Assembly: GCA_017506865.1 (NCBI GenBank) | Contig: JAFCMP010000120.1 | Span: forward strand, 62,001-126,000 | Source: Tribonema minus | Lineage: Eukaryota; Sar; Xanthophyceae; Tribonematales; Tribonemataceae | Length of the DNA: 64,000 bases | Direction of reading: 5' to 3' | In this document: positions 41,964 to 62,143 of the stretch, piece after piece | How positions within the stretch are numbered: the stretch's first letter is position 1 | How the letters are laid out: every line of letters starts with the position of its first letter | Notes under the pieces: model-generated | Seen by the model: the letters and a program-made list of their open reading frames with translations, nothing else | Told to the model about the DNA's origin: nothing | The model's database searches: none | Program-made: the position numbers and the translations under genes

Positions 41964-42002
<39 letters not shown>

Positions 42003-42807: not shown

Positions 42808-44373
42808 AAGTGCAGAAGTAAAGAAGGCTTGCTGCTGTATCTACTCGTTGTTCAGGACGCGCAGCAAGGGAGGCAAGGCGCCAGCACGTTGTGAATGCGC
42901 GTATCTCTTGACGTCTGCTGCACGATTGGAAAGAACGCTCATCCGCTGCTGTACGTGCTACATAAACCTATGTCAGCGCAGGGCTTCCTAGCACCCTGCT
43001 GACAGATTTGAATATGGCCGGAATCCGCCTGTCCCAGCTGTAGCAGTCATGACCTGGCGATCGGTTGGCTTGGATTTGAGTGTCTCAGTGTTTTTGTCAA
43101 CAGAAGTTCAATGTGACCCCCGTCTTCCAAAGAAATCTCGCATGTGGTGTTGGTGATTGATGATGGCGTGCATCGCAAGCATCTGCAGCAGCTGATAAGC
43201 GTGCGCAGGCGCTGCGTGCACAATTTTGCTGACTGTGTTGTCTGTATTGCTTGTGTCGCTTGCTTCTGAAGCCAAGGTGTGACTGGACGTTGAATGTCGG
43301 GATTCAAAGGGCTCGGTGCTCCCCGATTGGGCTTCTGCATGAGTAGTCGATCGCTGCACAGCATGTGGCTTGGCGCGTGGCACACATCTGCACGTTGAGA
43401 AAACATACCTGCGGCAGCTGTGTATGTTCGGTTTAATACTTAAAAGTTACATGGGGAAATGTGCATGATCTGGTTTTCATACTGAGCAGTGTATCATACT
43501 CTGGGACACAACCGTTGATGCTGACTGTAGAATGACATCTGATGTGAAAGTGCCAGGAGCTCTCTGCTGGTTTGCGGTCGCATACTTGTCTGTGCTGCTG
43601 CATGCTGCTGACTTGGACCTGTACAGGGGTCGCAGAATGCGCAGCAGAGCAGTAAGAAGGCCACTGGGGCCTGGACGGTTTGGATGGTGGTACAGCAGTG
43701 CACATTGGTTGCATGTTGGTGACTCTGCGCTCAGGCCTTAAGCAGGGAGCTATCTAGAGCTTGGTCCCGTAACCACAGCGCTGCTGCGTATGGCTCTTGT
43801 CGTATGCGACAGGCATGCTGATTATCTATGCTGCCTGCTAGCGATGGTTTGGCGGACCCTACATGGTCCATGCCGCATCATTGCGACGCCGACAGCTGCG
43901 ACGCTGACAGTTGCGGCTCAGGTGATGACAATTGCACTGCAGGTGAAGCAGCGGCAGAGCGGCAGCTTGCGCACACCGCCGTTGCCAGCACTAGAAGCAA
44001 TGACATTTTCGCCGTCCAATGGCGTAACAACGACGGCAGCGGCCACGGCCGCGCCGCTGCGCGTCACCGGTTCACCAGTCGCGATGGAGCCCGCTGCGGC
44101 TTCAATGGACGGCGGCAGCATCACTGCCGCAGTAGCTGCAGCAGACGACACGAAGGTGCAACGAGCGGCAGCAGCGAGTGCTTTATTCAAGTGAGTCGGG
44201 GGCAGCAGCAATAGTGGCGGCATTGGCAAGTGGACGCCATGATGGTGCTGTCACAGGGAGGGCATCGGCGGCGCAGCGGGACAGGCAGCAGGGCCACACA
44301 GTGGCGCCAGCACAGGCAGCGTTTGCTGCCACCGCAGCTGGCGCCTCTGCCGTCGCCGCCTCTGCCGCTGTTG

Positions 44374-44640
44374 GTGCCGCTGCCGCCGCCGCCGCCGCCG
44401 CCGCCGCCACCGCCGCCGCTGCCGCTGCCGCTGCCGCTGCCGCTGCCGCTGCCGCTGCCGCTGCCGCTGCCGCTGCCGCTGCCGCTGCCGCTGCCGCCGC
44501 CGCCGCCGCCGCCGCTGCCGCTGCCGCTGCCGCTGCCGCTGCCGCTGCCGCTGCCGCTGCCGCTGCCGCTGCCGCTGCCGCTGCCGCTGCCGCTGCCGCT
44601 GCCGCTGCCGCCGCTGCTGCCGCTGCCGCTGTCGCTGCCT
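44374..44640 (+). repeat. (CTGCCG)n / (CCG)n hexanucleotide block
   Basis: About 265 bp of CTGCCG units, interrupted by short CCG runs near 44,380-44,417 and 44,490-44,515. It reads Ala, Pro-Leu or Gly-Ser in different frames and produces long spurious ORFs. Confidence 0.9.
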
Positions 44641-44729
44641 GATTGGTTTCTGTCGCAGCAGTCCATATGCTCCATCAGCATGGCATGGCTCAACAAGCCA
44701 AGCGTCGTTGGCGAGCAATGGATTTCACA

Positions 44730-44733
44730 ATAG
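44730..44733. repeat. Target-site duplication, left copy
   Basis: ATAG immediately left of the left LTR, identical to 56781-56784. Confidence 0.8.
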
Positions 44734-45146
44734 TGAAGCGGCTTACCTTGTGATGCTGTCATGAATGCAAACAAGCAAGCTGGAAGAGCAAAACAAGTAG
44801 ACACGCTTCAGAGAACTCAAATGAAATGTTATGCGAAAGGAAAAACGATACGCTTACCGGATATTTTATTCTGCTGCTGAGAGACGGAAGGCTTGGGGCT
44901 GGACGATGGCTGGCACAGCAAGGTTCGGGCTTGCTGCTTGCAGGGGGGGTTCTGATGCTGTGCATACTACTTTGATGTGCCCTTTGGCATGTGACCCAAC
45001 TAGTTGCACCTGCCTTCAACTAAGGTCAGGCCAGCTCTCAATCACATGTCAAGGTCTACACCGACTACACAGGTCTACTGAGACCTGTGCCAACCTGTGA
45101 GGTGTAACTGCCTGTAACTGTCTGAATACACCCCCAAGCCGTATCA
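44734..45146 (-). repeat. 3' LTR (left copy)
   Basis: 413 bp, TG...CA. It differs from the other LTR by two adjacent substitutions (AAAAACGATA against AAACGCGATA) and an extra GCCAGCTCT. On the element's strand it holds an AATAAA hexamer at 44865-44870, a likely poly(A) signal. Confidence 0.95.
44865..44870 (-). terminator. AATAAA poly(A) signal in the 3' LTR
   Basis: TTTATT on the plus strand reads AATAAA on the element's sense strand. The same site lies at 56508-56513 in the 5' LTR. Its role is inferred from its place within the LTR. Confidence 0.5.
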
Positions 45147-45148
45147 GA

Positions 45149-45160
45149 TCCCCCTTCTTT
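45149..45160 (-). other. Polypurine tract
   Basis: On the element's strand AAAGAAGGGGGA lies two bases before the 3' LTR. It would prime plus-strand DNA synthesis. Confidence 0.8.
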
Positions 45161-45388
45161 GCTGAGCATCGCCCTCGATGCGGACTTGAACTCGAAGCAG
45201 CAGATCGCGGTCCCTAGTGTAGTTGCAGCATGCTCGCACTAAGTGCACTACTAAGCATGGAGGCCAATATAGAACTGGTTGGAAACCCCATTAAAAACCT
45301 GGGAGGCAAACCTGCTAGTCAGGGAAATCCTCTCTGCAGGAAAAGGGAGTCGCCGGCCTCAGCTTTGACTCAACTTGAGTCCCCACAA

Positions 45389-48300
45389 CTACTTCGCACT
45401 CTCCTCTGAGGATATACTGCGAGCGGCGAGCACGTTCCACGATGAGTATGGGCTGTCTTTTGGCGTGCGGTAGTCACCCGGACGTAAGCGCATACGCCTG
45501 ACAGTCTTCTCACCGTCGAATAGTACATCAAACGTGAACTGCGACCTGGCGGGGTAAAACTCACCCAGGACGCCGCGGCTCCAGCCTGTTGGAAAGTGAT
45601 ACCAGATCACTTCACCCTCAAAGTCTGATCCGAAATCAGATGGCAGTTTGGGCAGCCTTACCAGCGAGATCTGCGGCTGAGCAGAATCTTGGGCTGAGCT
45701 TGCCTCAGAACTAGTTTGGGAAGATGGCAGACCTCGCGTGACCTGAGAGTTGGGACTTGCACTACTCGCGCTGTCCGGCGCGCTTTGCGCCTGCAACCTC
45801 TTGGCTTTGTCACGCACTGCCTCCGCCAACTGTATGGCAGACTTGACCTGTGTACGGGTCATCTGTTCCCATTCACCATCCTCATATCTGATCCTCCAGT
45901 ATGGTGACACAAAGTTCTTAACGGCCCCCCACACGTAAGTGATCGGGCCGCCCACTACCGTTCTGTGCTCCCTGACCAGCGCCGTGCCGATGGGATAGAG
46001 TTGCAGCGCGCTCTCTCGGCGCATGCCAGCATCCTCCTTAGGTGTGGGCCTGATGGCATATGCCGGCAACCTTCCTTCGTTGCGCAGCTCATAGAGCGCG
46101 TGAAAAGCGTCTAAGGTCCATGGCGTCACTTCTTGCAGCATGTCATCCTCTGACACCCACGCATGTGACTTGCCATCTATGGACTGCCATTTGTACTGCC
46201 ACGAGCCATTGGGGCCCGCTTGGCGGTCCAGAACTCTGTATAACTTCTCACCATCTGCTAGCTCCTCCACTTGTCGGGGGCTCAGCATGGCGTGCACACC
46301 TGGCTCCAACATGGCACTAGGCCTCATGTGGAAGGGCTTCATGTTCTCAACATGAGCTGTGGTGTGTCTAACTCTTCTGCCCATCATCCTGCAGATGAAT
46401 GAGAGGCCTGATTCGCCTGTGCGAGCCTCGATCTGCCAAGGCCCCACATACCTGGCATCAAGAGCAGCCGACCTGTCTCTTTGTCTGGGCAGCCGTATCA
46501 TGACATAGTCACCGACGGCGAACTTCACCGCGCGCTTAATAGCTTCATTGCGCTTGGTGATCTTCTGGGCGCGCACTTGCAGCGCCTTTGACACCACTTT
46601 GTCTGCAAGCTCAAGCATATCCAGCTTGTGCTCAATCTCCTCGTGCAGGTCCAACTTCCTGCTGCCATCCTCGTGCATAAACGCATCATGTGGCAGTGAA
46701 GCCTCCCGACCGTACACACAGAAAAAGGGTGTTAAACCTGTTTCATCTCGGGGAGTTGTCCTCAACACAAACTGTACGAGCTCTAAGCCTTCGTGCCAGT
46801 TTGTCTGCTGAGCGCTGACCCAAGATGCTAGTGCCTTCTTAGCACGACCATTTGCATGTTCTGCCACACCATTGGTCTGTGGGTGGTATGCACTGGTCTC
46901 TATGCGTTTAACTTTAAACGCTCTGCAAAGGTCACTGACCACATTGCCAAGGAAGACTTTGCCCTTGTCTGAGCATAGTTCCTCCACTAATGCTCCAACC
47001 TCTAGGAACACTGTCATGAGGTGCGGGGTTACATCTTTAGTACCCTGGCCATGCATAGCGGCTAGCCATACAAAACCGGACCTCGTCTCCACAATAGTCA
47101 GAACATATTTATGCCCCGCTGCGGACTGGATACCAGGCTCTGTGATATCAATGTTGAGACGTTGCCACATGCGCACTGGCTCAGCCAACCACTGCTTATA
47201 TTGAGTGGAGCTGGCGCGCTTGCGTTCTAGGCACGTCATACAACTCTGCACGTACGTTCGTATGTCTGCGCCCATACCAGGCCAGAAATACCTCTCGAAT
47301 ATACGCGTGTGCGTAGCGCCTATGCCGCAATGCATAGCGCTCGCGTCATCATGCCCTAAACGCATGACTAGGGTTCGTAGCACCACTGGCACGACCCACT
47401 GCAACAACACCATACCTCTCTTGGGGTGGCTTGTTGAACTGTGCACCAAGAGGCCATCTTCCTCGACGGTATACTGCTCTCTCTGTGCTAAGACGTGAGC
47501 GGCTAGCTCCGCGCCTTCGGGTATGTCACCCTCAATGAGCATCTTGCTCACTGCTCGACAGAAGCCGTCCGCTTTCTGAACTTCAAGAAATGCGGCTCTG
47601 CTGAGCATTGCTGGCGTGGCAGGCGAGTCTCCCTCGGCCACCCGTTTCAGCAACTGCACTACTTCTGGCCTTGGCAGCGTCTTCTTGCGCTTGCCTAAAA
47701 CAGCTTCGCCATCCGGTGGCTCGTCTGCCTCATCTGCATCAGCAGCAGCTTCTACCTCTGGAACCTCTCCTTCTTCCAATGAGTCTGCCGCCGGCTGAGC
47801 CGTGGTGACGCTGCACTTGGCCCTCTTTGAGCTGATGCTGCGTCGCCTGTCGCATGCGATCTGCCTTAAGAGTCGCTGCGCTTGGGAATGCTCCCACGAG
47901 CCGGTGTACTTATTGACTGGCTCTGCGTACGCTGTGTTGATCTCAACTTCATCAACCTCTGCTTCCTCCACCGTGGAGTCATCTAGCCTTCTGTCCAACA
48001 ACTGTGCTAGCTCCACAGCTGTCAGAGCGGCTAACCTAGCGGCCACCGCGCCTGATATGGCGACGGCCTCGTTGAACTTGAACGCTGGCCCGTAACGTGC
48101 GTCCGCCGTGTACCCACGACAGCTGTTCACGTCGGCCACTTTGTGCGTTCTCGTGGCCTCGTCCGCAAAGCGCACACCTGACGGCGGTGCGTCTATGCTC
48201 GGGACTGCGTCTGGCCACTGTTCGTCTGCTGGCTCCGTAGAGCGCTCAGCATCTAACTCTGCCTGCTGTGGCAGCCTGGATGGGGCATCAGCATTGGCAT

Positions 48301-51300
48301 TCCTTTTGCCAGGCCTGTGCTGAATGGTAACGTCATACTCCTGTATGCGCATGGCCCATCTTAGTAGCTTGCCGTTGAAGTCTTGTAACGTCAACAGCCA
48401 CCTGAGCGCAGCGGCATCTGTGACCACTGTAACGGGGTTACCCCAAATGTAAGGCCTGAAGTGGTTGAGCGCCAGCACTACTGCCAGACACTCTACTGCC
48501 GTCGCTCCTAACTTCGCGTCGGGTTCAGAGTTCAGCTTGCTGAAGTAGCCAACGACTACTTCTCTGACCTCCTCGCCTTCAGCTATGCGGCGCCTGCCCG
48601 TGTGAGCATATGGCTGTCCCGCTGTTGCCCTTTCGACCTCACTCACAGGTCTGAACTGTGTAAGCACACCTGCCGTCGCCGTCTTGGAGGCGTCGGTGTA
48701 CAATACGAAAGGCAAACTGAAATCTGGGTGCATCACTATGCGACTGTCGCACATGGCACTCTTCAGCCGCTTGAAAGCCCGCTCTTGCGCAGACCCCCAA
48801 ACCATGACTGCTTTGTTCTTGGTCAGGGCTACTATAGGCTCTGATATCGCCCCAAAGTTGGGTACATATCGCCTGTAATAGTTAAACACTCCCATAACCA
48901 CTTGTACCAACTGCTTGTCTGGTACCCCGCCTTTCAGTGGGGGGCTCATGTCAAGCATGGCCTTGACCTTGTCAGGGTCTGGTCTTGTTCCAGAGGCGCC
49001 AACTATATGGCCTAGGAACTTGACTTCAGCTTGAAACAGCTGACACTTTGGGCGAGATACACTCATGCCCGCCGCGCCTATGCGGCCAAGAACATCATCT
49101 AACTGCTCGATGTGCTCCTCGATGTCCGTGCCATACACCAACACGTCATCTATGTACACTAGCGCGTGGGAGCCTAAGGCATCTCCCAGCACTTGGTGCA
49201 TCAATCTCGTGAACTGCGCTGGCAAGTTCACCAGCCCGACTGGCGCAACCTTGTAGTGCCACAACGAGCCGTCTGGGGCTCTGAAGGCCGTCTTGGCCTT
49301 AGCCGTCTTGGCCAGCGGGATCTGATGGTAACCCGCTGCCAGATCTAACGAAGATAAGATCCTCGCACCTTGCACAGCCCGCATCATGTCATCCATGTTG
49401 CCTAAGCCATGACTATCACGCTTCGTGACCGCATTCAACTTCCTGAAGTCTATGCAGAAGCGGATCTTGTCGCCTTGAACCACTAGTACTGGGTTGCTTG
49501 CCCACGCACTAGCTGATGGCTCAATCTGTTGGCGCTTTGCCATCATCTGAATCTGTTTCATGATGTACTCGGCTTCTTTGAAAGCCCAATGGCGTGCCTT
49601 GTCCGCCACCGGCTCGGCCGTCTGAGTGTCAACATCAATCTCAAAATGCTGAGTGACTCGAGGGTTTTTAGGGTCCTTAGCAAAGACATTCCTGTGCTTT
49701 TTTAGCATGTCAAGTGCTTTTGTTTTCAAAAGTACCCCATCTTTCCCCCTTCCTTGCAAATGAGGCGCAAGCCTGCCATCTTTCACAAGGATTTCCTCCA
49801 GCTCTGCATCTGTGCAGTTCTCTAGCTGGTCATTGTGGCGCTGGCTGAGGTCTGCCAGCCGTTGCACTTCTTGTGCAACCTCTTTGGCAGTCTTGCCTAT
49901 GCTAGCAGCTAATTCTGCCACTAACTTAGCATTTTCAGAGTGCCTTTTGGCTGCTATTACTAGCAGTTTGGCTTCTAGAGCCTGCTGAGTAGCTGTCTGC
50001 ACTTCTAGCAGATCATCAGCCTTAATTGGAGTCACTTTTCCCCAATACGTGTTGCGGCGCACGTAAACCGGGTACATTGAAGTGTTGCTCAATGTAGCGT
50101 ATATCGTGCCGCTGGCATTTACAGTGAGAGCGGTGATATTTGCCTTAACACCTTTGCCTCTCATCATTTCTGTAGTCACTGTTTCTTGTGGCATGAGCAA
50201 TGCCTCATAGGGCTGCACGCGCTTTGGCTTTGGTAGCAGCGTGAGTTCCACAATCGTCTCCGACGATGGTGCCAGTACAGTGTTATATGCCATCCTAGCT
50301 GAGCACTGCTGAGGCTTGTCTGGTGCCTCAGTGCTCTCAGCGCTGCCATTGCCCTTGCAACTGGCTAGTGCTGCCGCATGCGCGTTCGCGTTGTCTGCGC
50401 GATTCTTGTCGTGCATGGGGCGTATGGCCACACCTTTTAGTCCCCCTGGGAAGAAGGCTGGGCTACCGCCGTGATACGAGATGACTGAGCCATGCGGGGC
50501 AAAGAAATCCGTACCTAAGAGCACGTCCATGGGTGCGTTCACCACATAGAACTTGTGCAAGAACATCTTGTTCTTAAACCGCAGCCATGCATTGACCACA
50601 CCACTGATCTGCAGCGACGTCTTGCCGTCTGCCAAGAGGATCTCAGTGTAGTCACCTTGCTGAGGTGTACATACATAGCTGTTGGGGAGCTTGTCTGCAA
50701 TGCGCTTGCCCATGATGGTTACGGTCGCACCGCAGTCTACCATGGCGCGCACATAGAGTTCTTTGGGCGTCTGAGAGTTGCTTTGTACGCGTAACGACGC
50801 GGACACAAACATCTGCCCTGGAGGTACAACACCGGCTACTGGGCGTATGTACTCCACTGGAGCCTCCGACTTGGAGCGCTCTACCGAGCTAGGCTCAGGG
50901 GACCCTACTGCAAGGTCTACATGAGGTAACTTGACTGGTTCCCTCGGTTTTGTGATCTCTTCTGTGAGATTCTTAATTGTCTCTGCCACACTCACTGGTG
51001 GGGCTGTGTCTAACTTGCTGACACCTGGCACATGGTCTAATATGCCTAGAGACTGAGCATCAAGGCCAGCGCGCCTGAGCGCTGCCTTCAACTCACCTGG
51101 GGCAAGGCGCGGGTCTGTACCGCCGCCGAGCTTCTTGCGTGCCGCTGCGGCCGCAATGGGTGGAGCACTGATTTCTGTGTCAATGTCCATGTCGTCTGCG
51201 CTACTGCAAACGCTCATAACTGACTGTGAGTCCCACTCAGAGTCAGACCCTGAGTCAGAGTCATCGACTTCCACGATGTCAGCCATGCCGGGCTGCACCA

Positions 51301-54300
51301 CAGCCAAGTCTACCTCTGGCTCTTCCCATGCACTGCGCATCGGAATTATGGGTACCTCTGCATACCCTGCATCATGCGACTTTGCATGTATGCTACGCGC
51401 CACTGCTGCTGAGCAGTGTGCACTTGACGAGGGCGCTGCGTGTACCGCGGTAGCGGCCTGCACCAGCGAACCACTCTGACCAGCCAACCAAGACGGGGGC
51501 GGGCAGTCAACTGAATGCCTCAACGTAGAGTCTGACCTACGCAGCAAACGTACCTGTTGTTCTGGCAGTGTGCACAGGCCTGAGGCCTCAATTGCCACGA
51601 ACAAGTGAAATGCCATCTCTGGGATGAACAAGTCTGCAATGTAACGCCGTACATCACTACTGCATGCACTCGCTGGTAATTCATGATAATACGTCATGAG
51701 CACTGCCATTTCCGCAAGCGACAGCAAGCGGGCAGATGCCACTGGACCAGCGTCTTTTGCATGTGCAACATAACTCGCAGTGGGCCTACCAGGCAGTCTG
51801 CGCACTGGGCTAGGCAACAAGCCATCAGCATCCAAAACACCAGGGTGCTGAGCACTGCGTGGTTGCAAGAAGAATGTGCGTTCGGGGCAGCGCAAGCGAG
51901 AGCGAACAGATGTGGGTCTGCTTTGTAAACGCTTGGTATTTATTACCGCACCGAACCTCTGGAGCGCCTCACGTGAGGCCACCCCTGCTGGTACTATGAC
52001 AATGTACACCCTCTGCCTCCTGCAAGGTACTTCAAACTCAGAAGCCTTTAACTTGGCAATGTACAGCATGTAACCAGCCGACTTGAGAATGCGTACTGCG
52101 CGTGCAAACGCGCGTGACACTAGCACTCCTGGCACATTCTCATACAACACCACCCGAAGCTTGGCCCGCACGATGAGCCGTGCGGCATGGACCGTGCACT
52201 CGGCAGCTTCGCCCTCGACCTTCTTGCCCTCTGCCGAAAAATCTGTGCAGGGCGGGGAGATGGTGGTGACGTCAGGTTTCTCGTCGATGAGACGTGCAAC
52301 AACCTTCGCATCAGTGATGCATGCAGTGAGCGTGGGCACTTCTGGATGAACTTCATGCAGAGCCTCAATTGCCTTGACGTCTTTGTCAACTGCGAGCACC
52401 GTGCGTGTTACAAAACCTGCTCTGGAGGTCAACTTACCCCCAGCTATGGCGCCTCCTAGCGCCCCACAGCAGATAGACGCGTGTTTGATAACTCTGGGTG
52501 GTGGCTCTGGCCCACCCTCAATTGCCGCCATCTGTGCGCGCAAAGAGACATCGTAAACAGCGTCAGTGGCATGCTCAGCTACCTGTGCCGAACATGCATC
52601 TGCTCTAACTACACCAGGCAATTCACTGATTGCTGATGCTGAACTTGCAGCAGGCAAGTCACTTCCTACCAAGGCAGCAGACAACTGCAAGTGTGATTCA
52701 CCTTGGCGGTGCTTTTCTGCCATCCTCTTTCGGTGCGCAATGCACTGAGGGCAGGTAGTCTTGTGCCGCATAAGTGTGTCCCAGTCTCCCTGGTTCACTC
52801 TGCAGCCAAGACACTTGAAGTTGCTCTGGGGCTTGGCTCCGCCGCCGCCATTATCGCCTGCGGAGCTAGCCTTGCCCTGCGGCGCGCGGTCGCTGACTCC
52901 AAGCTGGCGACGCTCGTTAGCGCTCAGCCCCGCCAACACAGCGCGAACAGCCGAAAGCTTATTCTTCTTTTTATAGCGATGGTCGTTACTGACCACGCTC
53001 CACCCATCCTTGGCAGGGCGCTTGCCTGTGTCAGAGTAGGGGGGGGTTGAGATGTGTGCCGCGGCCATTGCAGACACAACATTTCGAGTCTCGCGCTCGT
53101 CAATAGGCGCTGCCTGCCACTTTTGCTGGGCAGTTGCCACGACCTTGGGAAAAGCGGTGTTCTTTAGATCCCAGGTCTCATACATGCCGTTTACTTCTTG
53201 ACGGCAGCATAATGGCAGTTCATGAACGAACTTCATACGAACAATTTGCTGGTTGTCCGCGCAGCCGGCGTCGTGCGCGGCTGCAACTACCTCCCTGCCC
53301 CACACTTCGGGGCTGGTACCGGAGGTACGCGTGAGTTCATGATACTTTTGAAGTGCTATTTGCCTGGCAGATGTGCTATCGTACGCTGCTGTAAGGCATT
53401 GCACCATCTGCTCATAAGACAAATCACTAAACGCACGAGTTTCTAGCATTCCCGTGCGCTCATTGGTGACTGCGCTGGTCAGATCAGCGTACTGACTCTT
53501 GGTCAGACTCTGCAACAGCGCTTCTGAGTAGGCCGACTTGGGCACGCCACGCGTGTCGCAGCTACGCTCAAAAGCTCTAATGGGAGCTTCAAGCCTGCCT
53601 ACTTGCGTTACAATGACGACGCCAGTGCCGCCGAAACCCCTCAAGTCAACTTTGGGTTTCCGCACCGTCATGGCAACTGAGGAGTACGAGGGTTCTACTG
53701 CCCCCGCAGTCCTAATGCTCTCACCTAGAGCCGATGCGCTGGTGGCTACGCCGGCCACTGCGCCATCTTCACGCGGACTCGCAGCTGCGCCGGCTGCGTC
53801 GTCGTCCGACGTGTCGGAGTGCCCGTCAGTGTTGAGGAACGGGTGCGTCACCAGGCTGCGCGGGTAAGTGTCCGCAGCTAGGCGCGCCTCCTCGGTGACC
53901 AGAGGCGTGTTCTCGAACTCCCTTAGCATTCGCCAGAGTTCCGCCTCCTCACCGTCGCCTGTGCCGAAGGCGAAGCGATGCCAACTATTGGACCGCTTAC
54001 GGTGTTCACCTATGGTCAGCAGCTCGCCGAACTGGCTAGCTTTGAAGTCATGACCACGTTTTTCCAGAAGTGCAACATTATGCTTGCGCACCTCTTCGGC
54101 CTGCTCCGCAGCGAACGTCCGCGCCATCGGCAGCAGTGAGTTCTTCACCATGTTCTTGCTCTCACTAGGAGCTCTGGTGACGCGAAGCTGGAGCTCGCCA
54201 AGGCGTTCGTAAAGGGCACGCTCGTGAATTTCGGCGAACGTTGCAGCCGTTTTGGCGGCCTTGGCAGCTCGCTTATGTGCCTCGACGCGAGCTTCGATGC

Positions 54301-54352
54301 CCTCACGCCACTGGTCATAAGCCTCATCTGTGCCCTCAGGATCAAAGGGCAC
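45389..54352 (-). CDS. Gag-DNMT-Pol polyprotein of the LTR retrotransposon
   Basis: An uninterrupted frame of 2987 codons from a GTG at 54352; the frame is open further upstream, to about 54466. Gag-like region ~90-400; C-x2-C...H...C-x2-C zinc finger ~511-540; cytosine-5 methyltransferase ~619-925 (PPC Cys702, ENVPG Glu738); aspartic protease with VDCGAT, Asp1206; reverse transcriptase ~1600-1790 with YIDD at 1733-1736; RNase H Asp1887; integrase zinc domain to Cys2371/Cys2374 and core Asp2402, Asp2462, Glu2498 (D-D-35-E); GPW/F-like end; chromodomain-like ~2700-2740; two Tudor/SH3-like motifs near 2817-2840 and 2920-2962. The enzymes copy the RNA and insert the DNA; the chromodomain would guide integration to chromatin. 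All key catalytic residues are present except that the protease has Asp-Cys-Gly where Asp-Thr/Ser-Gly is usual. It is probably expressed as a fusion with the upstream ORF. Confidence 0.95.
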   Translation of the reverse strand: MPFDPEGTDEAYDQWREGIEARVEAHKRAAKAAKTAATFAEIHERALYERLGELQLRVTRAPSESKNMVKNSLLPMARTFAAEQAEEVRKHNVALLEKRGHDFKASQFGELLTIGEHRKRSNSWHRFAFGTGDGEEAELWRMLREFENTPLVTEEARLAADTYPRSLVTHPFLNTDGHSDTSDDDAAGAAASPREDGAVAGVATSASALGESIRTAGAVEPSYSSVAMTVRKPKVDLRGFGGTGVVIVTQVGRLEAPIRAFERSCDTRGVPKSAYSEALLQSLTKSQYADLTSAVTNERTGMLETRAFSDLSYEQMVQCLTAAYDSTSARQIALQKYHELTRTSGTSPEVWGREVVAAAHDAGCADNQQIVRMKFVHELPLCCRQEVNGMYETWDLKNTAFPKVVATAQQKWQAAPIDERETRNVVSAMAAAHISTPPYSDTGKRPAKDGWSVVSNDHRYKKKNKLSAVRAVLAGLSANERRQLGVSDRAPQGKASSAGDNGGGGAKPQSNFKCLGCRVNQGDWDTLMRHKTTCPQCIAHRKRMAEKHRQGESHLQLSAALVGSDLPAASSASAISELPGVVRADACSAQVAEHATDAVYDVSLRAQMAAIEGGPEPPPRVIKHASICCGALGGAIAGGKLTSRAGFVTRTVLAVDKDVKAIEALHEVHPEVPTLTACITDAKVVARLIDEKPDVTTISPPCTDFSAEGKKVEGEAAECTVHAARLIVRAKLRVVLYENVPGVLVSRAFARAVRILKSAGYMLYIAKLKASEFEVPCRRQRVYIVIVPAGVASREALQRFGAVINTKRLQSRPTSVRSRLRCPERTFFLQPRSAQHPGVLDADGLLPSPVRRLPGRPTASYVAHAKDAGPVASARLLSLAEMAVLMTYYHELPASACSSDVRRYIADLFIPEMAFHLFVAIEASGLCTLPEQQVRLLRRSDSTLRHSVDCPPPSWLAGQSGSLVQAATAVHAAPSSSAHCSAAVARSIHAKSHDAGYAEVPIIPMRSAWEEPEVDLAVVQPGMADIVEVDDSDSGSDSEWDSQSVMSVCSSADDMDIDTEISAPPIAAAAARKKLGGGTDPRLAPGELKAALRRAGLDAQSLGILDHVPGVSKLDTAPPVSVAETIKNLTEEITKPREPVKLPHVDLAVGSPEPSSVERSKSEAPVEYIRPVAGVVPPGQMFVSASLRVQSNSQTPKELYVRAMVDCGATVTIMGKRIADKLPNSYVCTPQQGDYTEILLADGKTSLQISGVVNAWLRFKNKMFLHKFYVVNAPMDVLLGTDFFAPHGSVISYHGGSPAFFPGGLKGVAIRPMHDKNRADNANAHAAALASCKGNGSAESTEAPDKPQQCSARMAYNTVLAPSSETIVELTLLPKPKRVQPYEALLMPQETVTTEMMRGKGVKANITALTVNASGTIYATLSNTSMYPVYVRRNTYWGKVTPIKADDLLEVQTATQQALEAKLLVIAAKRHSENAKLVAELAASIGKTAKEVAQEVQRLADLSQRHNDQLENCTDAELEEILVKDGRLAPHLQGRGKDGVLLKTKALDMLKKHRNVFAKDPKNPRVTQHFEIDVDTQTAEPVADKARHWAFKEAEYIMKQIQMMAKRQQIEPSASAWASNPVLVVQGDKIRFCIDFRKLNAVTKRDSHGLGNMDDMMRAVQGARILSSLDLAAGYHQIPLAKTAKAKTAFRAPDGSLWHYKVAPVGLVNLPAQFTRLMHQVLGDALGSHALVYIDDVLVYGTDIEEHIEQLDDVLGRIGAAGMSVSRPKCQLFQAEVKFLGHIVGASGTRPDPDKVKAMLDMSPPLKGGVPDKQLVQVVMGVFNYYRRYVPNFGAISEPIVALTKNKAVMVWGSAQERAFKRLKSAMCDSRIVMHPDFSLPFVLYTDASKTATAGVLTQFRPVSEVERATAGQPYAHTGRRRIAEGEEVREVVVGYFSKLNSEPDAKLGATAVECLAVVLALNHFRPYIWGNPVTVVTDAAALRWLLTLQDFNGKLLRWAMRIQEYDVTIQHRPGKRNANADAPSRLPQQAELDAERSTEPADEQWPDAVPSIDAPPSGVRFADEATRTHKVADVNSCRGYTADARYGPAFKFNEAVAISGAVAARLAALTAVELAQLLDRRLDDSTVEEAEVDEVEINTAYAEPVNKYTGSWEHSQAQRLLRQIACDRRRSISSKRAKCSVTTAQPAADSLEEGEVPEVEAAADADEADEPPDGEAVLGKRKKTLPRPEVVQLLKRVAEGDSPATPAMLSRAAFLEVQKADGFCRAVSKMLIEGDIPEGAELAAHVLAQREQYTVEEDGLLVHSSTSHPKRGMVLLQWVVPVVLRTLVMRLGHDDASAMHCGIGATHTRIFERYFWPGMGADIRTYVQSCMTCLERKRASSTQYKQWLAEPVRMWQRLNIDITEPGIQSAAGHKYVLTIVETRSGFVWLAAMHGQGTKDVTPHLMTVFLEVGALVEELCSDKGKVFLGNVVSDLCRAFKVKRIETSAYHPQTNGVAEHANGRAKKALASWVSAQQTNWHEGLELVQFVLRTTPRDETGLTPFFCVYGREASLPHDAFMHEDGSRKLDLHEEIEHKLDMLELADKVVSKALQVRAQKITKRNEAIKRAVKFAVGDYVMIRLPRQRDRSAALDARYVGPWQIEARTGESGLSFICRMMGRRVRHTTAHVENMKPFHMRPSAMLEPGVHAMLSPRQVEELADGEKLYRVLDRQAGPNGSWQYKWQSIDGKSHAWVSEDDMLQEVTPWTLDAFHALYELRNEGRLPAYAIRPTPKEDAGMRRESALQLYPIGTALVREHRTVVGGPITYVWGAVKNFVSPYWRIRYEDGEWEQMTRTQVKSAIQLAEAVRDKAKRLQAQSAPDSASSASPNSQVTRGLPSSQTSSEASSAQDSAQPQISLVRLPKLPSDFGSDFEGEVIWYHFPTGWSRGVLGEFYPARSQFTFDVLFDGEKTVRRMRLRPGDYRTPKDSPYSSWNVLAARSISSEESAK
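45458..45910 (-). other. Two Tudor/SH3-like C-terminal motifs
   Basis: Near residues 2817-2840 the protein reads YWRIRYEDGEWEQMTRTQV. Near 2920-2962 it reads GWSRGVLGEF...FDVLFDGEKTVRRMRL. Both follow the pattern of beta-barrel reader folds, V-x-Y/F-D/E-D-G-x-x-x-x-x-L. The two motifs are separated by a Ser-rich linker. Assignment is by pattern only. Confidence 0.45.
46133..46255 (-). other. Chromodomain-like motif at the integrase C-terminus
   Basis: Residues ~2700-2740 read LYRVLDRQ...WQYKWQSIDG...WVSEDDML, matching the pattern V-x-K/R-I/V-L-D-x-R ... Y-x-V-K-W-x-x-Y ... W-E-x-x-x-x-L of chromovirus chromodomains, with some aromatic positions replaced. It probably recognises modified histone tails. 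Confidence 0.6.
51578..52498 (-). other. Cytosine-5 DNA methyltransferase domain within the polyprotein
   Basis: Residues ~619-925 of the polyprotein carry ordered C5-methyltransferase motifs. Motif I is ASICCGALGG (SAM binding); an acidic residue follows in LAVDKD; motif IV is SPPCTDFSAEG with the catalytic Cys702; motif VI is ENVPG with Glu738; motif VIII is CRRQRVYIV. A motif IX/X-like end reads SLAEMAVLMTYY...RRYIADLFIPEMAF, where the usual Gly-Asn of motif X is Ala-Asp. The enzyme would methylate cytosine in DNA, probably of new cDNA, the element or its target chromatin. It lies between the Gag zinc finger and the protease, so proteolysis could free it. It is in frame and has no stop. 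Confidence 0.9.
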
Positions 54353-55389
54353 ACCACCCTCATCACCAGATGACTCAGAAGACTCGAGCAGTTGCCTAAC
54401 TGCCCTCCGTCGCTCTGCCGCTTGTTGCTCAACTGGCTTTCGCGGTATGACGGGACGCTACGTGGCACAACTGGCGAACTTTGCACGACTGGCACGCTAC
54501 GTGGCACAACTGGCACACGCCGCGCCTTACCACTTGCACCCCGACGCGGCTGCGTCACAGGCGATTTATCTGAGGCTTCAGGGGCCCTCGCTGGTGCAGT
54601 ATAGTATGTGGGAGCCACTAGCCTAGCTGATGGCTTGGAGCTCTGAGGCGTCGGAGCCGCCGGTGCTACTTCAGGCGCCGCAACTGGGACCCGTGCACCG
54701 CGCGTAACCGACGTCTTGGCCGGCTGACTGCGCGCGACCTTAGGTGGGGCCACCGCGGGCGCAACCAGTGCTGCAACTGGCACTGTGGACTTTGCAGGTG
54801 CTGGCGCCGCAGACTTCGCGGGCGCTGCCGGCACAGCTGGCGCGGCTACCGGCACAACTGGCGCGGTTGTTGCAGCTGCACGCGGTGTCTTGCGTGGGCT
54901 TTTCGTTGGTGCGAGTTTTTTCTCAACAGTTGCACGTGCAAAAGCTTCTTCGCCTTCTGCTACCTGGGTTTCGCTAAGCATAATGCCCATTGCTGCAAGC
55001 TGTTCTCTTTTCTGCCTCAAACGTAACTGCCTTGCCACTATGGCTTCGGCTTCTGAGCCGCCACCGCCGGGCTCGTCGCTGGACTCAGCGAAATTACGTA
55101 TAAAAGGAGGTGCGGCACCAGTGACTACTGATTCTGTGGACCGTACCGAGGCAGACGTGTCGGGCGCGCTGGCACCGACCTGGCTGGGTTGTGCGGACGC
55201 TGCCGCGGGCCGGGGAGGGGGGCGTGACGGCTTGTCACCCGAGCTTGGTGCGGGGCGCGTAGCGGAGCGCTGACCGCCCTTGTTGCTCTTAGCAGCAGTG
55301 CTGCCAGCAGGCCTAGCACCGCCACTAACACCTCCGCTGCGGCTTGACCCACTCGTTGGCTTCTTGGAGCCATGGTCAGTCTTGACCAT
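54145..55389 (-). CDS. Upstream ORF of the retrotransposon: basic Pro/Ala-rich Gag N-terminus
   Basis: ATG at 55389 to TGA at 54145, 414 aa. Ser/Gly/Lys-rich at first, a short charged helix (EAEAIVARQLRLRQKREQL), then long Ala-Pro-Lys stretches like linker-histone tails, suited to RNA or DNA binding. The last ~100 codons overlap the polyprotein frame and look like a shadow of it. The polyprotein frame is -1 relative to this one and is open from about 54466, so a -1 ribosomal frameshift in 54466-54148 would fuse the two. I saw no canonical slippery heptamer in that stretch. A real indel or independent initiation are alternatives. Confidence 0.75.
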   Translation of the reverse strand: MVKTDHGSKKPTSGSSRSGGVSGGARPAGSTAAKSNKGGQRSATRPAPSSGDKPSRPPPRPAAASAQPSQVGASAPDTSASVRSTESVVTGAAPPFIRNFAESSDEPGGGGSEAEAIVARQLRLRQKREQLAAMGIMLSETQVAEGEEAFARATVEKKLAPTKSPRKTPRAAATTAPVVPVAAPAVPAAPAKSAAPAPAKSTVPVAALVAPAVAPPKVARSQPAKTSVTRGARVPVAAPEVAPAAPTPQSSKPSARLVAPTYYTAPARAPEASDKSPVTQPRRGASGKARRVPVVPRSVPVVQSSPVVPRSVPSYRESQLSNKRQSDGGQLGNCSSLLSHLVMRVVCPLILRAQMRLMTSGVRASKLASRHISELPRPPKRLQRSPKFTSVPFTNALASSSFASPELLVRARTW

Positions 55390-56357
55390 TTATGGTGTAT
55401 CCTGCACACGATTCACGCGCATGAAGCTGAGTGCGACGACAAAACCATGATTTTAAATTGTCAGCGCACGAGCCGTCTATGCCCCGCACGCCTCTGCACG
55501 AGGTCTGATGCTACTAGGGCACTCTGAACTGCAAGCCAGCCAGTTTGACATAGCAGTTGTACAGATCGACCGCGTTGTCAATTCTGCAACACAATTGCGG
55601 CCGTACAATCATGAAGCAAAATTGCATCGCTTTGCTCTTAAGCTAGACTCCTCTCCCCCTTCTTTGCAAAAAGCTAGTCATATCAGCTTTAGAGCAAATT
55701 ACTAAGGAAAAGCATGCGGTAGGGTTTTTATTCTAGTCATAGGCAACCGTTACAGCCAGAAAAGTGGCAGCGCATGCCCCTTTGTGCGCTTATTCTCGAG
55801 ACTTCTCGAGTGCAACCACTTAACACTGTCTATGACAAGTCACTACCGTTTCTGTGACTTCTGATACACAAGCTATCACGTGTCCCCCCTAAAGGATCTC
55901 CGCGCGTTCTCCCGGGAGACTCTGGTGCGTTCGTGACGTGATAGTGTACGGCGCGCAAGCTGGTGTACACAGCGCGCTACCGCACGGGTCTACCCTCGAT
56001 GCCCTATATTGGTCCACGTGACCACGTTCATCAACCACAGATGAGCCGCAGAATAAGGCCAGCTAAATGAAGTTGCATGTTCATTGCTGCTCAGACCCGT
56101 GCAGCACGCACTGCGTCGTTGACATCAAGGGGGCGGGTCACGACGTAGCGGTGCACCACTACGCCGCCCCGTCATAAGCATTCTAGTGCAGGAACCTAGC
56201 GTGATTAACGTTTAACTCGCTTCCCACGGCTGTTCTTTACGTATCGCTTTACGTAATCTGGGTCCTCGAAAGGCTTTGACACGATTCGAGCAGTGATACA
56301 TTGAACAGCGATCACCACGCTGCTGCCCTTGCGGGCGGGGTTAGCACGAGGTAAGGA
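55390..56357 (-). other. Retrotransposon 5' leader
   Basis: About 970 nt between the primer-binding site and the first ORF, with no long ORF on the sense strand. A repeated CTTCTCGAGACTTCTCGAG lies near 55790-55810. It likely contains packaging signals, by analogy with other LTR elements. Confidence 0.6.
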
Positions 56358-56373
56358 CTGTCTTCGGGTGCCA
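56358..56373 (-). other. tRNA primer-binding site
   Basis: On the element's strand, three bases after the 5' LTR, comes TGGCACCCGAAGACAG, complementary to a tRNA 3' end finishing GGGTGCCA. I did not identify which tRNA. Confidence 0.75.
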
Positions 56374-56376
56374 AAT

Positions 56377-56780
56377 TGAAGCGGCTTACCTTGTGATGCT
56401 GTCATGAATGCAAACAAGCAAGCTGGAAGAGCAAAACAAGTAGACACGCTTCAGAGAACTCAAATGAAATGTTATGCGAAAGGAAACGCGATACGCTTAC
56501 CGGATATTTTATTCTGCTGCTGAGAGACGGAAGGCTTGGGGCTGGACGATGGCTGGCACAGCAAGGTTCGGGCTTGCTGCTTGCAGGGGGGGTTCTGATG
56601 CTGTGCATACTACTTTGATGTGCCCTTTGGCATGTGACCCAACTAGTTGCACCTGCCTTCAACTAAGGTCAGCAATCACATGTCAAGGTCTACACCGACT
56701 ACACAGGTCTACTGAGACCTGTGCCAACCTGTGAGGTGTAACTGCCTGTAACTGTCTGAATACACCCCCAAGCCGTATCA
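56377..56780 (-). repeat. 5' LTR (right copy)
   Basis: 404 bp, TG...CA, nearly identical to 44734-45146. It should carry the element's promoter; no TATA box was firmly identified. Confidence 0.95.
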
Positions 56781-56784
56781 ATAG
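56781..56784. repeat. Target-site duplication, right copy
   Basis: ATAG directly after the right LTR, matching 44730-44733. Confidence 0.8.
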
Positions 56785-57767
56785 CTGCAAGCTGTATCAC
56801 CTACTAGTAGTATTGTTGTACGTACTTCACTCGATTGTTCTCAATGTTCTGCATTCACTATCGCCTGGCCTCCATCAGCAACAGTGTTGTCAGCACGAAG
56901 AATTGCAATGTACACCATTACATGTCTTCATCGAACAAACTTGGCATCAATGTGTGTTCTACCTCAACTGAGTGCATGCATTGCGCTTAAGTGCACGAAG
57001 TAGATGTCACATTGCCACTGCACTCATCAAAGGTGCAAGCCATAACAAAGCCATGGCTGCCTGACATCCAAGTATTTGCTCTAAGGGAGGTATGCAAAGC
57101 CATGGTGGCCAATGCAGCGCATCCCATGGCACAAGCGCAGGTGTGGCCAGAGAGCAGGCAGCACAGAAGACAAGAGCACCAGAATGTGCATATACATGGA
57201 AAGCGATCTCTATGATTCATGACTGCGCGTAATGTAATCTGTGAGAAAAGTATGCGCGCCTCGCGCTGCGTTGCCGTTGGATGATTAAAACTTGACAGAA
57301 AGTCCTATACGGCTCGGGACTGCTGAAAGCACTATCACACAAGTGCCAGCACCAGCCAACCACATATGCGACTTGGTGGGCACCCAGTGCAGCGTGGCTT
57401 ATTTGCACATCCAGCCTTTGACTGCCGCTCTGGCATTGTAAACATCAAGTGACACCAAGAAAACTTCATGCTACATAGCTAGGGCGTATACTTCAAGGAA
57501 GGGTACATGTGTCGGCTGGTAAACCCCAACCTGATGTTACTACAACTCTGAGCATCACTGGACGCACCAAAATGCGTGGCCGCATAGTACGGCATTTGAC
57601 AGGTAGGTAAGTACCCGTGTGTGTGCTCCGGTCTTCTGCAATGCCTCTTGCGCTCCCTCAACCTCACCCAACCACTGGCCTGACACCGGGATAATCCAGC
57701 ATAAATCACTAACTTCGCAGCAGGAGGCAGCCATACATACCTACCATGCTTCGCAACCGCCGCTGCG
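56785..57767. other. Intergenic region, no confident gene
   Basis: AT-richer than the host exons, with no recognisable domain in either strand's open readings. Confidence 0.5.
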
Positions 57768-60700
57768 CTACGCGCCGATCGGCTGCAGAGCGCGCCGCTG
57801 CTGCGGCATGTCGAACAGCGGCAGCAGCTGCTGCTGCTCCTTGTACTGCGGCTGCTTCGGGAGCGCCAGAGACTGCGTGTACAACGCTGCCTCTGAACTG
57901 AGGAAAAAAGGCGAGTCGACGGACATGCACCCGCCGCCGCTGCCACGCAGCGCGGCGCTGCCGCCCGTGGCCGCAAATGGCGCGTGCGGCGGCAGCGCTG
58001 CGGGCATGGGACACCACTGAGCACTGCTGCTGCTCATGGCGCTGTCGAAAGCCAGCCCCATCGGCGCCAGCGCCGGCAGCCACTGCGGCATTTGCGTCTG
58101 CGGTGCCGCCTCAGCTGAGGCGTGCCACGACTGCTGCTGCCCCGCGTACGCCAGCTGCGCGCAGCTGCTGCTGCTGCTGCTGCCGCTGCTGCCAGACGCC
58201 GCCGACTGCACAGAGCTCCGCCGCGACAAGTCGAAGTGCATGAGGTGTTCGATGCTGCCGCTGTCGCTGCCGGCAACGCTTGGCAGCAGCAGCGGCGCCG
58301 CCGGCAGCAGCAGCGGCGGCGGCGGCAACATCGCCGCCGACTGCTGCGAGCTTGCGGCGGAGTCCGATGAGCCGCGGCGCGCCAGCTCCCGCAGCGTGCA
58401 CTGCGCGTCTGCGGCAGCGGCGTCGTGCGCGCCGCCGCCGCCGCACGGCGGAGAGTCTTGAAGTTGAAAGGAGTTGAAGTGTGCCGCCATGCGCCACATG
58501 CCGTCTTGCTCGTGCCCTGCTGCCGTGCCGCCTCTGGCGTCGCTTTGCGGCAGCGGAGCAATGGGGCCGGTTGCAGCAGCGCTCACCATTGTTTCAGGCG
58601 CCGCGACTGTGTTTGTCGGTATGAACGCGTGCTGATGGCGGCCGCCGTAGTACATGGGCAGCTGCTGCTGCGGGGGCATCATCGGGGCAAACTGCTGCTG
58701 CTGCTGCTGCTGCTGCTGTCCATGGGCGCTGCTGCCAGCGGGCTGCGCTTCCCACTGAGCGAGCGGAAGCTGCTGGTAGTGCTGCTGCTGCTGGTGCTGC
58801 TGCCACTGGTTCTCTGGGCCAAGGCCCGAGGCAGCAGCGCTCATCATCATCATCTGCTGCTGCTGCTGCTGCGGGCTCTGAGCACTGTCGCTGCTCACGC
58901 CTCCGGGGATCACAGTGCTGAAAGCCTGCTGCTGCTGCTGCTGCGGCGGCGGTGGCGGCAGCCCATGCGCGCTGCGCCCTGCAGCGGCGCTGCTGCCATG
59001 GGACGCGTTGTTGGAACCGGGCATATCCATGCTGAGCCAATCCATGACCTCCGCTGGCTTTTGCGCAGGCGTTCCTGTGATTAGGATCAGGGTTTAAATT
59101 TATAAGTCATGAGGTTAGCACACGGATGACAATGAGGGTGAAATGCACATAAGCTCATGCTGGTGCGCCTTACTTACGCCCAACAAAGCTGACGGCAGGT
59201 GCTGCAAAGGTGAGGAGGCGACTTGCCGCTGGTTTTGCACATGATTTGTGCAGGCGCACCGCATTACAGAACGCAATGGCGCACTGCACGGATGGCGTCA
59301 TACATGGAACAGGGCTGGGTATTCAAAATCACAGCTGACGGGGGTGGCGGCATCAAGGGTGAGCTTTGTGCTGCAACCACTTTCCGCAGCGACAGGCACA
59401 TCAACCTCAACATGAAGTTCAAATGACTTACGATTACTCTTTACTTGTTACAAATGTACTTGTACCAAATGTACTCCAGAGGTGCATCACAGGAAACCCG
59501 CAGATTCTCGCACTATCGCCCATCACTGTCCATCACGAGCAGCCTCACCCTTTGCCGCCGCAGCCATGCGCTTCGGCGCCTTCACGCTCTTGGCCCGCTG
59601 TAATTCAGCCGCCGCCGCCGCCGCAGCCTTCAAATTTGCGCCGCTGCGGACCGCAAACGACTTGCTCGGCTGCAGCCAGCCAGCAGCACTCAGCGGCGAC
59701 CCCGGCGCGTCAGGCCAGCACGGCTCCGCATCTGCAGCAGCGCTCATCGGCGAGCCCACGATGCTCAGCGCGTCGCACACGGAAGGGCTGAGTGGCGAGA
59801 CGAGGGTGCTGAGCGCTGGCGCGCCGCGCGTGGCAGCGCTCAATGAGAATGCCGTGGCAGCAGTGCTCAGCGGAGAGGCGCTGCTGGCGGCGGTGCTCGG
59901 CAGCGGCGCCGGCGACAGCGCGCGCAGGCGCGCTCCCCACGCCTTGTCATAGGCCTGTTGTCGCTGCGGAGTTGACGCAGCGACGGCATCGGCATCGGGC
60001 CAGTCGCAGAACGGCCTGTCGTCCACCGTGAATTCGTATCTGTGATTGCAGCACAGACGGACGCAGGAAGGCCTGTGAGGTGAACAGTTGTGGCGGTGCT
60101 TATTGTTGATTTGTAGATTAATGCGTACGTGGCAGCAAACAAGTTGCGTGGTCCCGTGGTTGCTCGTCGTGAACCATGAAGTATTTCTTCGTTGAAGCGC
60201 ACAGTGTGCAAGTTGAACGACACACGTATGATGGCTACGCAGTCAGAGCTGCTGGAGTACTTCAGATGCGCTTGCCCATCGTCAGGGCTAGGGCTAGGGC
60301 GCTGCCGCACCTGTGCTGCCCCTTCATCCGCATTCGGGTTAGGGTTCTGCTATTGTCGAGGACAGGCTTAGCTAGGGCTGAACGCACCGGCCATCCTCGG
60401 TGACGGCGACGCGGCAGATTGCGCTTGCCCACAACTCGGGTTAGGGCTAGGGTTAGCGCTGCCGCACCTGTGCTGCACCTGCGTCAGAACTAGGGTTAGG
60501 GTTTGCCATCATCAACATCAGGTCGCGCACCTGCCGTCCTCCGTGACGGTCACGCGGCAGACGCGCTTGCCTACAACTAGGTTTAGAATTAGAGTCAGGG
60601 CGCTGCCGCACCTGTGCTGCGCCTGCGTCAGACCTAGAGTTAGGGTTTGCTATCATCAACATCAGGTCGCGCACCTGCCGTCCTCGGTAACCGTGACGCG

Positions 60701-61710: not shown

Positions 61711-62143
61711 GTCTTCAGAGCGATGGCGGCGGCGAGGTCGCTGGCCACGCGCGAGTTGTACTACACTCGTCACTGCGTCGACGAGGTGAGCTGCCAGGAC
61801 GAGATCTGGGTTTACGAGTGGTTGAACGGCACGCCGAGAACGCATAAACAGAGCGCGGATACGCGCTGGTAGAGCACGAGGTACCGCACACGCGCTATGA
61901 ATCCAGTCCGCTCAGATAAGTGCCCCCCGATTGCTCCAGCAGCAGGAATCGAGCTGCGGCATGGCATATAATTCTGCGCCGCACCCCCAATCACAGCGGT
62001 TAAGGTGTCCCCGAATGAAACCACCACAACTGAAACTTGAACTTCTCTCTGCAGCGGTGACCCCTGCCATCGCTGGCACTTTAGCCCAGCCGTAGCTTCG
62101 AGAATCCAGCACGCAGCTCCAGGGGGAGCCTCACTAGCTCGCG
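61711..62143. promoter_or_regulatory. Region between divergent FAIM-domain and BAR-domain genes
   Basis: 433 bp between opposed ATGs. A plus-strand ORF, MAAARSLATRELYYTRHCVDE, starts at 61723, only 12 bp from the FAIM gene ATG, and ends at a GAG/GTGAGC donor-like site. It could be an upstream first exon of the BAR-domain gene. No core promoter motif is recognised. Confidence 0.4.

Follow-up and report, generated by a model that had tools for sequence, protein, structure and literature searches.

We analyzed a 64,000-bp stretch of DNA, called the window below, that spans positions 62,001 to 126,000 of contig JAFCMP010000120.1 in an assembly of 158 Mb and 554 contigs. On its minus strand, at positions 44734 to 56780, lies a Ty3-type long terminal repeat (LTR) retrotransposon of 12,047 bp that carries a C5-cytosine methyltransferase domain in its coding region (Table 1). 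The two LTRs, 413 and 404 bp long, are identical at 402 of 404 aligned bases (99.5%) and differ further by one 9-bp indel. They have TG...CA termini, and ATAG on both outer flanks forms a 4-bp target site duplication. A direct-repeat search of positions 42000 to 60000 returned the two LTRs, one minisatellite, and no further repeats.

Pfam scans of pieces of the element identified, in minus-strand order, a methyltransferase, a protease, reverse transcriptase (RT), RNase H, an H2C2 domain, and the integrase core, rve. In Ty3 elements, RT is followed by RNase H and then by integrase, which comes last. The window element has integrase last in its domain order, together with the paired TG...CA LTRs and the target site duplication. 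Its open reading frame 2 (ORF2) contains part of Gag, the methyltransferase, protease, RT, RNase H, and integrase. The original prediction, made from the sequence of the window, was that a Ty3/gypsy element here encodes its own C5-methyltransferase, and the LTRs, the Ty3 domain order, and a match to PF00145 supported it. All replication enzymes were also said to be present with their catalytic residues; the domains were indeed found, but the protease reads DCG rather than D-S/T-G, and both it and rve scored below their cut-offs. The predicted placement of the methyltransferase between a Gag zinc finger and the protease holds as a position in the window's clade, but the "zinc finger" is a Cys/His cluster that had no Pfam match up to an E value of 5.

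The methyltransferase domain matched PF00145 with 67.2 bits (cut-off, 22) over profile positions 5 to 160 of 324. Direct reading, with the motifs numbered by convention, placed motif IV (PPC, with Cys702) and motif VI (ENV, with Glu738) at the positions predicted. Motif VIII was likewise found as predicted, and motif IX is present; motif I, also predicted, contains one extra residue. The window element is a copy of a young Ty3-type LTR retrotransposon, designated family A (other families of the genome are denoted by further letters). Its family has CCGALGG in motif I, compared with CCGIGG in the related family K, and its motif X is degenerate, without the usual Asn. Families D, E, and F have the motif I spacing G-x-G-G, and LANAV-P is present in them.

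A search of the genome with the PF00145 profile gave 123 scored matches. At least 84 of these were followed, on the same strand and within 6.5 kb, by an RT or RNase H match among those listed, a tally that counts as unpaired one locus (L022) directly read as Ty3. We fetched 20 loci around PF00145 matches and found 16 to be Ty3 elements with the domain upstream of RT; the other four were three stand-alone enzymes (L009 to L011) and a DNMT2-like exon recognized by eye (L012). To avoid choosing loci by the trait, we picked 14 further loci, covering about 10 subfamilies, through RT and RNase H searches. All 14 had a methyltransferase profile match upstream of RT, in sense orientation in 13 cases; at L037, only an antisense methyltransferase fragment was seen. 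No Ty3 family without the domain was met in this far-from-exhaustive sample. At least 32 copies of the window domain, the window copy included, are present at 96 to 100% identity over the full domain length. Sibling copies were found to carry the domain, as anticipated, on other contigs and inside open frames of up to 3,376 amino acids (aa). Among the elements examined, the domain is a standard component. Because the architecture recurs across many contigs and two environmental proteins (described below) nest in families A and F, we ruled out a chimeric assembly and contamination.

The three stand-alone C5-methyltransferases (L009 4779-5948, L010 4699-5799, and L011 3921-5027; C223, C181) are of a different kind and share the motif GFPCVGLS. 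Open frames next to L010 and L011 match a ResIII helicase, and those next to L009 match a deoxynucleotide monophosphate kinase and a GH5 glycosidase; these surroundings are perhaps those of an endogenous giant virus. At C311:3907-7215 there is a 6,208-aa open frame with a methyltransferase 39% identical and an RT 69% identical to those of the window element. The frame is twice the usual length and perhaps represents two fused or tandem elements.

The element had been described as intact, which did not hold for its gag region. ORF1 (55389 to 54145) and ORF2 (54352 to 45389) lie in different frames in the window copy, whereas tblastn placed the ORF1 part in frame with the following Gag part in all four siblings compared (L024, L025, L026, and L028). 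L024 is a single open frame of 3,020 aa within the fetched stretch; L025, L026, and L028 are broken at other places, and further siblings have longer open frames, of 3,333 and 3,376 aa. Direct comparison of the window copy with L024 revealed one single-base length difference near position 54,450. The window copy is therefore frame broken in gag relative to its siblings, and an assembly error may be the source of the break. A long minisatellite with a 9/12-bp unit occupies positions 44187 to 44700, beside the 3' LTR, and is open in several frames, reading (PL)n, (A)n, (GS)n, or (RQ)n.

Table 1. Features of the window element and its borders (positions in the window)
Feature	Position	Strand	Evidence
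Target site duplication ATAG, left	44730..44733	none	sequence read
3' LTR, 413 bp, TG...CA ends	44734..45146	minus	
Putative polypurine tract adjoining the 3' LTR	45147..45160	minus	sequence read; assignment inferred
ORF2, 2987 aa from first GTG; frame open from 54457	45389..54352	minus	
SH3-like stretch after integrase (Tf2-1 type)	46334..46513	minus	weak; E 0.0049, below Pfam cut-off
Integrase core (rve)	46880..47164	minus	Pfam E 1.5e-6, just below cut-off
Integrase H2C2 zinc domain	47216..47392	minus	Pfam E 3.7e-17
RNase H (RT_RNaseH / RT_RNaseH_2)	48335..48799	minus	Pfam E 3.9e-23
Reverse transcriptase piece (query piece); YIDD in ORF	48983..49672	minus	Pfam RT E 5.2e-27
Retropepsin-like protease, active site DCG	50501..50752	minus	Pfam E 3.7e-5, below cut-off
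C5-cytosine methyltransferase domain	51569..52516	minus	PF00145 E 2.2e-18
Cys/His cluster upstream of methyltransferase, noncanonical relative to CCHC knuckle	52742..52813	minus	
ORF1, 414 aa, N-terminal Gag region	54145..55389	minus	
Putative primer-binding site, starts TGG, 3 bases past inner 5' LTR border	56358..56373	minus	sequence read; assignment inferred
5' LTR, 404 bp	56377..56780	minus	
Target site duplication ATAG, right	56781..56784	none	sequence read

We built unrooted RT and methyltransferase trees from the same 19 elements. The RT tree contained three supported groups, namely D/F, G/H/I/J, and A/B/C/K with Bx, B2, and K2. The methyltransferase tree gave D/F, G/H/I/J, and A/B/K (86/96) and left C unresolved; in the 81-row methyltransferase tree described below, C joins A/B/K (100/98). 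There was no supported conflict between the two 19-element trees. A pattern script located a protease signature downstream of the domain in A, K2, Bx, B2, and C, and tblastn did so in K and others. The signature precedes the domain in F (DTGA...IIGRD, L017) and, in a variant form, in D and E, all three read by eye because the script's pattern did not capture them; no convincing protease was found in G, H, I, or J. The order Gag, methyltransferase, protease, which had been suggested as new, holds in the window's clade, while another clade has the protease first. With the protease ahead of the domain in D/E/F and behind it in A/B/C/K, at least two captures or moves of the domain must have occurred, unless it was the protease that moved. 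These two orders leave a single ancestral capture undemonstrated, and it means little that unrooted trees agree on three deep clades. In the chromovirus branch of Ty3, the integrase C terminus bears a chromodomain; family F (L016 632-2050) ends in a clear chromodomain (PF00385, E 1.1e-7, above the cut-off), while the family A C terminus had only subcutoff SH3_Tf2-1 and Tudor matches.

Relatives of the domain were sought among 5.8 billion proteins with a profile built from seven families; of 8,000 candidates scored, 673 had an E value of ≤0.001, and 120 were listed. The top matches were two environmental proteins, P0005, which is 57% identical to the window domain over 74%, and P0006, which is nearest to family F. 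The next was P0007 from Rhizobium sp. Leaf383 (172 bits), 26 to 30% identical to the window domain. Later matches scored ≤130 bits, and those with a named organism were bacterial, among the matches listed. A protein search with region 610-930 of the whole ORF2 returned no match, and a single scan for a viral donor, in which the window domain was the sole query against viral contigs, found none. We then built a tree of 81 rows (15 Ty3 domains, the 2 environmental proteins, 61 other listed matches, the 2 stand-alone enzymes P0002 and P0003, and 1 DNMT2), for which the program issued a long-branch warning and the bootstrap had not settled. In it, all 15 Ty3 domains and the two environmental proteins formed one group (95/62) apart from those 61 rows, with the Rhizobium protein as sister in a 99/95 clade. 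P0007 resembles the Ty3 domains in its short region between motifs VIII and IX and has a canonical motif X. The closest relative outside elements thus appears to be bacterial, and the domain is best described as being of bacterial type. A recent capture of a host gene was rejected: the domain groups with the domains of other elements and apart from the genome's two stand-alone enzymes in the tree, P0002 and P0003; the genome's DNMT2 exon (L012) was outside the tree.

A profile search of the PDB gave DNMT2 the highest score (90.6 bits), followed by HhaI (86.7), DNMT1 (up to 73.3), 4fsx (50.4), and a Rad8 chain (21.4); we take 4fsx to be maize CMT and the Rad8 chain to be, presumably, DNMT5. The PDB contains DNMT3 structures. 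None of the 55 PDB sequences matched at an E value of ≤0.01 was a DNMT3- or DRM-labeled chain, and the domain therefore appears, as judged from PDB profile matches, to lie outside Dnmt3, the class found in the published Gypsy and DIRS elements.

The catalytic motifs differ among the families. Both PPC and ENV were found in the representatives that we read from A, B, D, E, F, G, K, K2, and B2. Motif IV reads APC in C, TLC in Bx, and TRC in I and J, all of which retain ENV. Family H has lost the entire motif IV loop and with it the catalytic Cys, and it has ENA in place of ENV, as read in L040; a second locus, L046, gave an identical profile match. A genome search with the H domain found at least 27 copies at 98 to 100% identity that match in one piece across the deleted site, 11 of the listed copies spanning query residues 1 to 307 and 16 spanning residues 24 to 307. 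Four H copies sit in open frames of 3,452 to 3,455 aa. Since these near-identical copies cross the deleted site, a family without the catalytic cysteine has multiplied recently. The 16 copies that match in one piece only from residue 24 have a separate match for residues 1 to 30, and several of them show one open frame to each side, of about 1,496 and 1,972 aa, whereas others have one 3,455-aa frame; the split may reflect a shared frameshift or two expression strategies.

We estimated dN/dS (nonsynonymous and synonymous divergence, NG86) for 13 domain pairs, of which those with a dS of >1 are near saturation. Within family A, the domain gave 0.0014/0.021 for the window copy and L024 and 0.0084/0.105 (ratio, 0.08) for the window copy and L028. 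Other close pairs gave 0.035/0.138 (0.25) in G, 0.073/0.113 (0.65) for L014-L020 in B, 0.013/0.030 (0.42) for L015-L018 in D, and 0.0013/0.0041 for the young I pair L041-L043. Among deeper pairs, the values were 0.316/1.60 (0.20) for K-K2, 0.533/2.06 for K-A, 0.551/2.21 for B-B2, 0.327/1.51 (0.22) for D-E, 0.219/1.36 (0.16) for H-I, 0.256/1.72 (0.15) for H-J, and 0.327/1.43 (0.23) for I-J. The corresponding RT values, where computable, were 0.0056/0.020 (window-L024) and 0.0094/0.033 (window-L028) in family A, 0.019/0.102 for the B pair, 0.152/2.57 for K-K2, 0.0060/0.0073 for L041-L043, 0.045/1.68 for H-I, 0.065/2.88 for H-J, and 0.072/1.75 for I-J. For the two young pairs within family A, it is RT that has the higher ratio (0.29). 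The domain is mostly under purifying selection, which is weak in the B, D, and young I pairs, and the catalytically altered clade H/I/J is as constrained as the intact families; part of the H/I/J constraint may predate the loss of the motif.

Traces of cytosine methylation were sought in CpG content and substitutions. The CpG observed/expected ratio (o/e), 0.95 to 0.99 in the flanks, is 0.80 for the element and 0.48 for the LTR. Among five family A copies, CpG transitions were enriched 1.2 to 3.1 times per site in 10 of 10 pairwise comparisons, which are not independent and have no host control. Between L028 and the window copy, for example, CpG holds 85 of 215 transitions and 1268 of 5443 unchanged C/G sites, about twice the rate per site. 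This excess fits cytosine methylation of inserted family A copies. By family, CpG o/e was 0.71 to 0.72 in H and I, 0.87 in J, and 0.81 to 1.13 in families with intact PPC and ENV; these values cover everything fetched for each element, which in some cases includes host flanks. Self-silencing, protection of cDNA, and marking of insertion sites had been suggested as possible roles of the domain. One expectation under self-methylation at CpG failed, and CpG depletion found no support as its signature, since H and I, in which motif IV is deleted or altered, are the most CpG poor. Because the depletion does not track intact motifs, the methylation may be the work of host enzymes; the traces are compatible with methylated copies but do not single out the element's own enzyme.

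We propose that family A is part of a wide assemblage of elements, in a chlorophyll a/c alga, whose Gag-Pol contains a bacterial-type C5-methyltransferase; the domain would be packaged and, where intact, would methylate cDNA. Our confidence in this reading and our doubt about it are evenly balanced. As part of the polyprotein, the domain would be packaged with RT and integrase, and in the particle it would contact the element's nucleic acid. Families with intact motifs would methylate cytosines of the new cDNA before or at integration, and the incoming copy would thereby resemble methylated host DNA or be shielded from nucleases and editing. A second, noncatalytic job (nucleic acid or S-adenosylmethionine [SAM] binding or particle assembly) could keep the fold after catalysis is lost, to judge from H, I, and J. 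We infer this mechanism from the position of the domain, the selection on it, and the yeast activity of SymbioDIRS-Dnmt3 domains, which are reported to methylate CG de novo in that host (PMC5890265); intact versions of the domain probably methylate cDNA. Several points weigh against this proposal. Family A itself has the extra residue in motif I, which binds SAM, and the degenerate motif X. In the B pair and the deep pairs, dN/dS is 3 to 7 times as high for the domain as for RT, and the B (0.65) and D (0.42) pairs, both of which include broken copies, are little constrained. CpG depletion is out of step with intact motifs, H and I being poorer in CpG than every intact family, and no palindromic tetramer was depleted solely in the intact families. 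Finally, KnitGypsy-Dnmt3 gave no detectable methylation in yeast, a result its authors called "inconclusive" (PMC5890265).

More tentatively, and with less confidence than in that proposal, we suggest that a bacterial-type methyltransferase entered Ty3 elements of chlorophyll a/c algae, became standard at two positions, and turned into a dead but selected module between G and H/I/J, the fold being needed and methylation an extra. Family H, whose domain is dead yet conserved, suggests that the fold serves another purpose in at least one lineage, and catalysis seems dispensable there. In a rival explanation, the domain would act mainly without catalysis, as a nucleic acid-binding or assembly module or a SAM-binding or dominant-negative decoy against host methylation, with catalysis a leftover in some families. 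The many near-identical H copies without motif IV and with ENA for ENV favor this unlikely explanation, as do the low H-I, H-J, and I-J ratios at a dS of 1.4 to 1.7, but those long-branch ratios may partly predate the loss and are near saturation. Also in its favor, 12 of 14 elements lack a CxxC motif in the stretch of at most 220 residues ahead of the domain; D, E, and F have their protease there, which makes the absence uninformative about their Gag. Since PPC and ENV are intact in so many families, the idea that catalysis never mattered is hard to sustain. It is less probable still that the domain methylates RNA (genomic RNA or the primer tRNA) in the manner of DNMT2 and so aids packaging, translation, or priming: DNMT2 is the top-scoring solved structure, and an RNA role was proposed for SymbioLINE-Dnmt (PMC5890265), but the DNA enzyme HhaI scores nearly as high, and the tree puts the domains with the bacterial enzyme and not with DNMT2, whose row is long and only 44% filled. 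We regard as the least probable of these possibilities a self-limiting mark, by which the element would methylate its own copies, the host would silence them, and harm to the host would be held down. The CpG transition excess in family A and the low CpG o/e of the LTR relative to the flanks agree with such a mark, but depletion is stronger in H and I, and a host enzyme explains it equally well.

Four light-harvesting stretches were compared with the PDB. Fucoxanthin chlorophyll a/c proteins came top in two, and in the other two the top match was a polyprotein of unstated source (9vfj), followed mainly by ACPI, ACPII, or CAC proteins, which we take to be cryptophyte chlorophyll a/c proteins. 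The host thus appears to be a chlorophyll a/c (red-lineage) alga, not a charophyte. A green alga, which GC content and repeats had suggested, was rejected on the strength of these light-harvesting proteins, and the size of the genome makes a dinoflagellate unlikely. DNA methylation is usually a weapon of the host against transposons, and Ty3 families that regularly carry a methylation writer are no rare accident. In this genome, young multicopy elements carry the domain in both intact and dead form, a natural experiment in which new copies of H compared with those of A or K could separate methylation from other roles.

In full-text searches of open-licence PubMed Central, the one primary report that we recognized of C5-methyltransferases inside Gypsy, DIRS, or LINE elements was that of de Mendoza et al. 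in 2018 (PMC5890265), which is cited in PMC6338049 and PMC12344493. The excerpts of open-licence PubMed Central articles that we covered, which include PMC9998398, PMC12477816, PMC5963040, PMC3145265, and PMC9246332, yielded no such Ty3 element in chlorophyll a/c algae, no bacterial-type Ty3 domain, and no retained dead domain. The principle has been known since 2018, and the host, the enzyme class, the breadth, and the retention of a dead domain look new. It had been suggested that the host lineage may be new for such elements, and it does look new; the published Gypsy case comes from Klebsormidium nitens. Our findings extend the known LTR cases to a new group of hosts and, with a bacterial-type domain in place of Dnmt3, to a second class of enzyme.

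That Gypsy case, KnitGypsy-Dnmt3 (PMC5890265), is likewise an LTR element with a C5-methyltransferase in the Pol ORF, many copies, conserved key residues, and purifying selection. It differs in its Dnmt3 domain and DIRS-like repeats, whereas here there was no DNMT3 or DRM match and the LTRs are plain direct repeats with a 4-bp duplication; the elements described here also occupy a chlorophyll a/c host, fall into several deep Ty3 clades, show two domain orders, and include one clade without the catalytic motif. SymbioDIRS-Dnmt3 shares a methyltransferase in the polyprotein and two domain orders within one genome (PMC5890265), but it is a DIRS element with a tyrosine recombinase and a Dnmt3 domain, unlike the DDE integrase, LTRs, and bacterial-type domain seen here. 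SymbioLINE-Dnmt carries an orphan non-Dnmt3 methyltransferase on a multicopy retrotransposon (PMC5890265) and is placed among orphan DNMTs in PMC12344493; it is a LINE, with the domain in an upstream ORF and neither LTR nor integrase, both of which the window element has. In Ectocarpus, Sola1-1_Ec32 (PMC12477816) is another algal transposon with a DNA methyltransferase accessory protein, encoded, however, by a separate gene opposite the transposase, with a ParB-like domain and a methyltransferase of the N4C or N6A type. The Rhizobium sp. Leaf383 relative, finally, is a free-standing protein, whereas the Ty3 domains are borne on a polyprotein.

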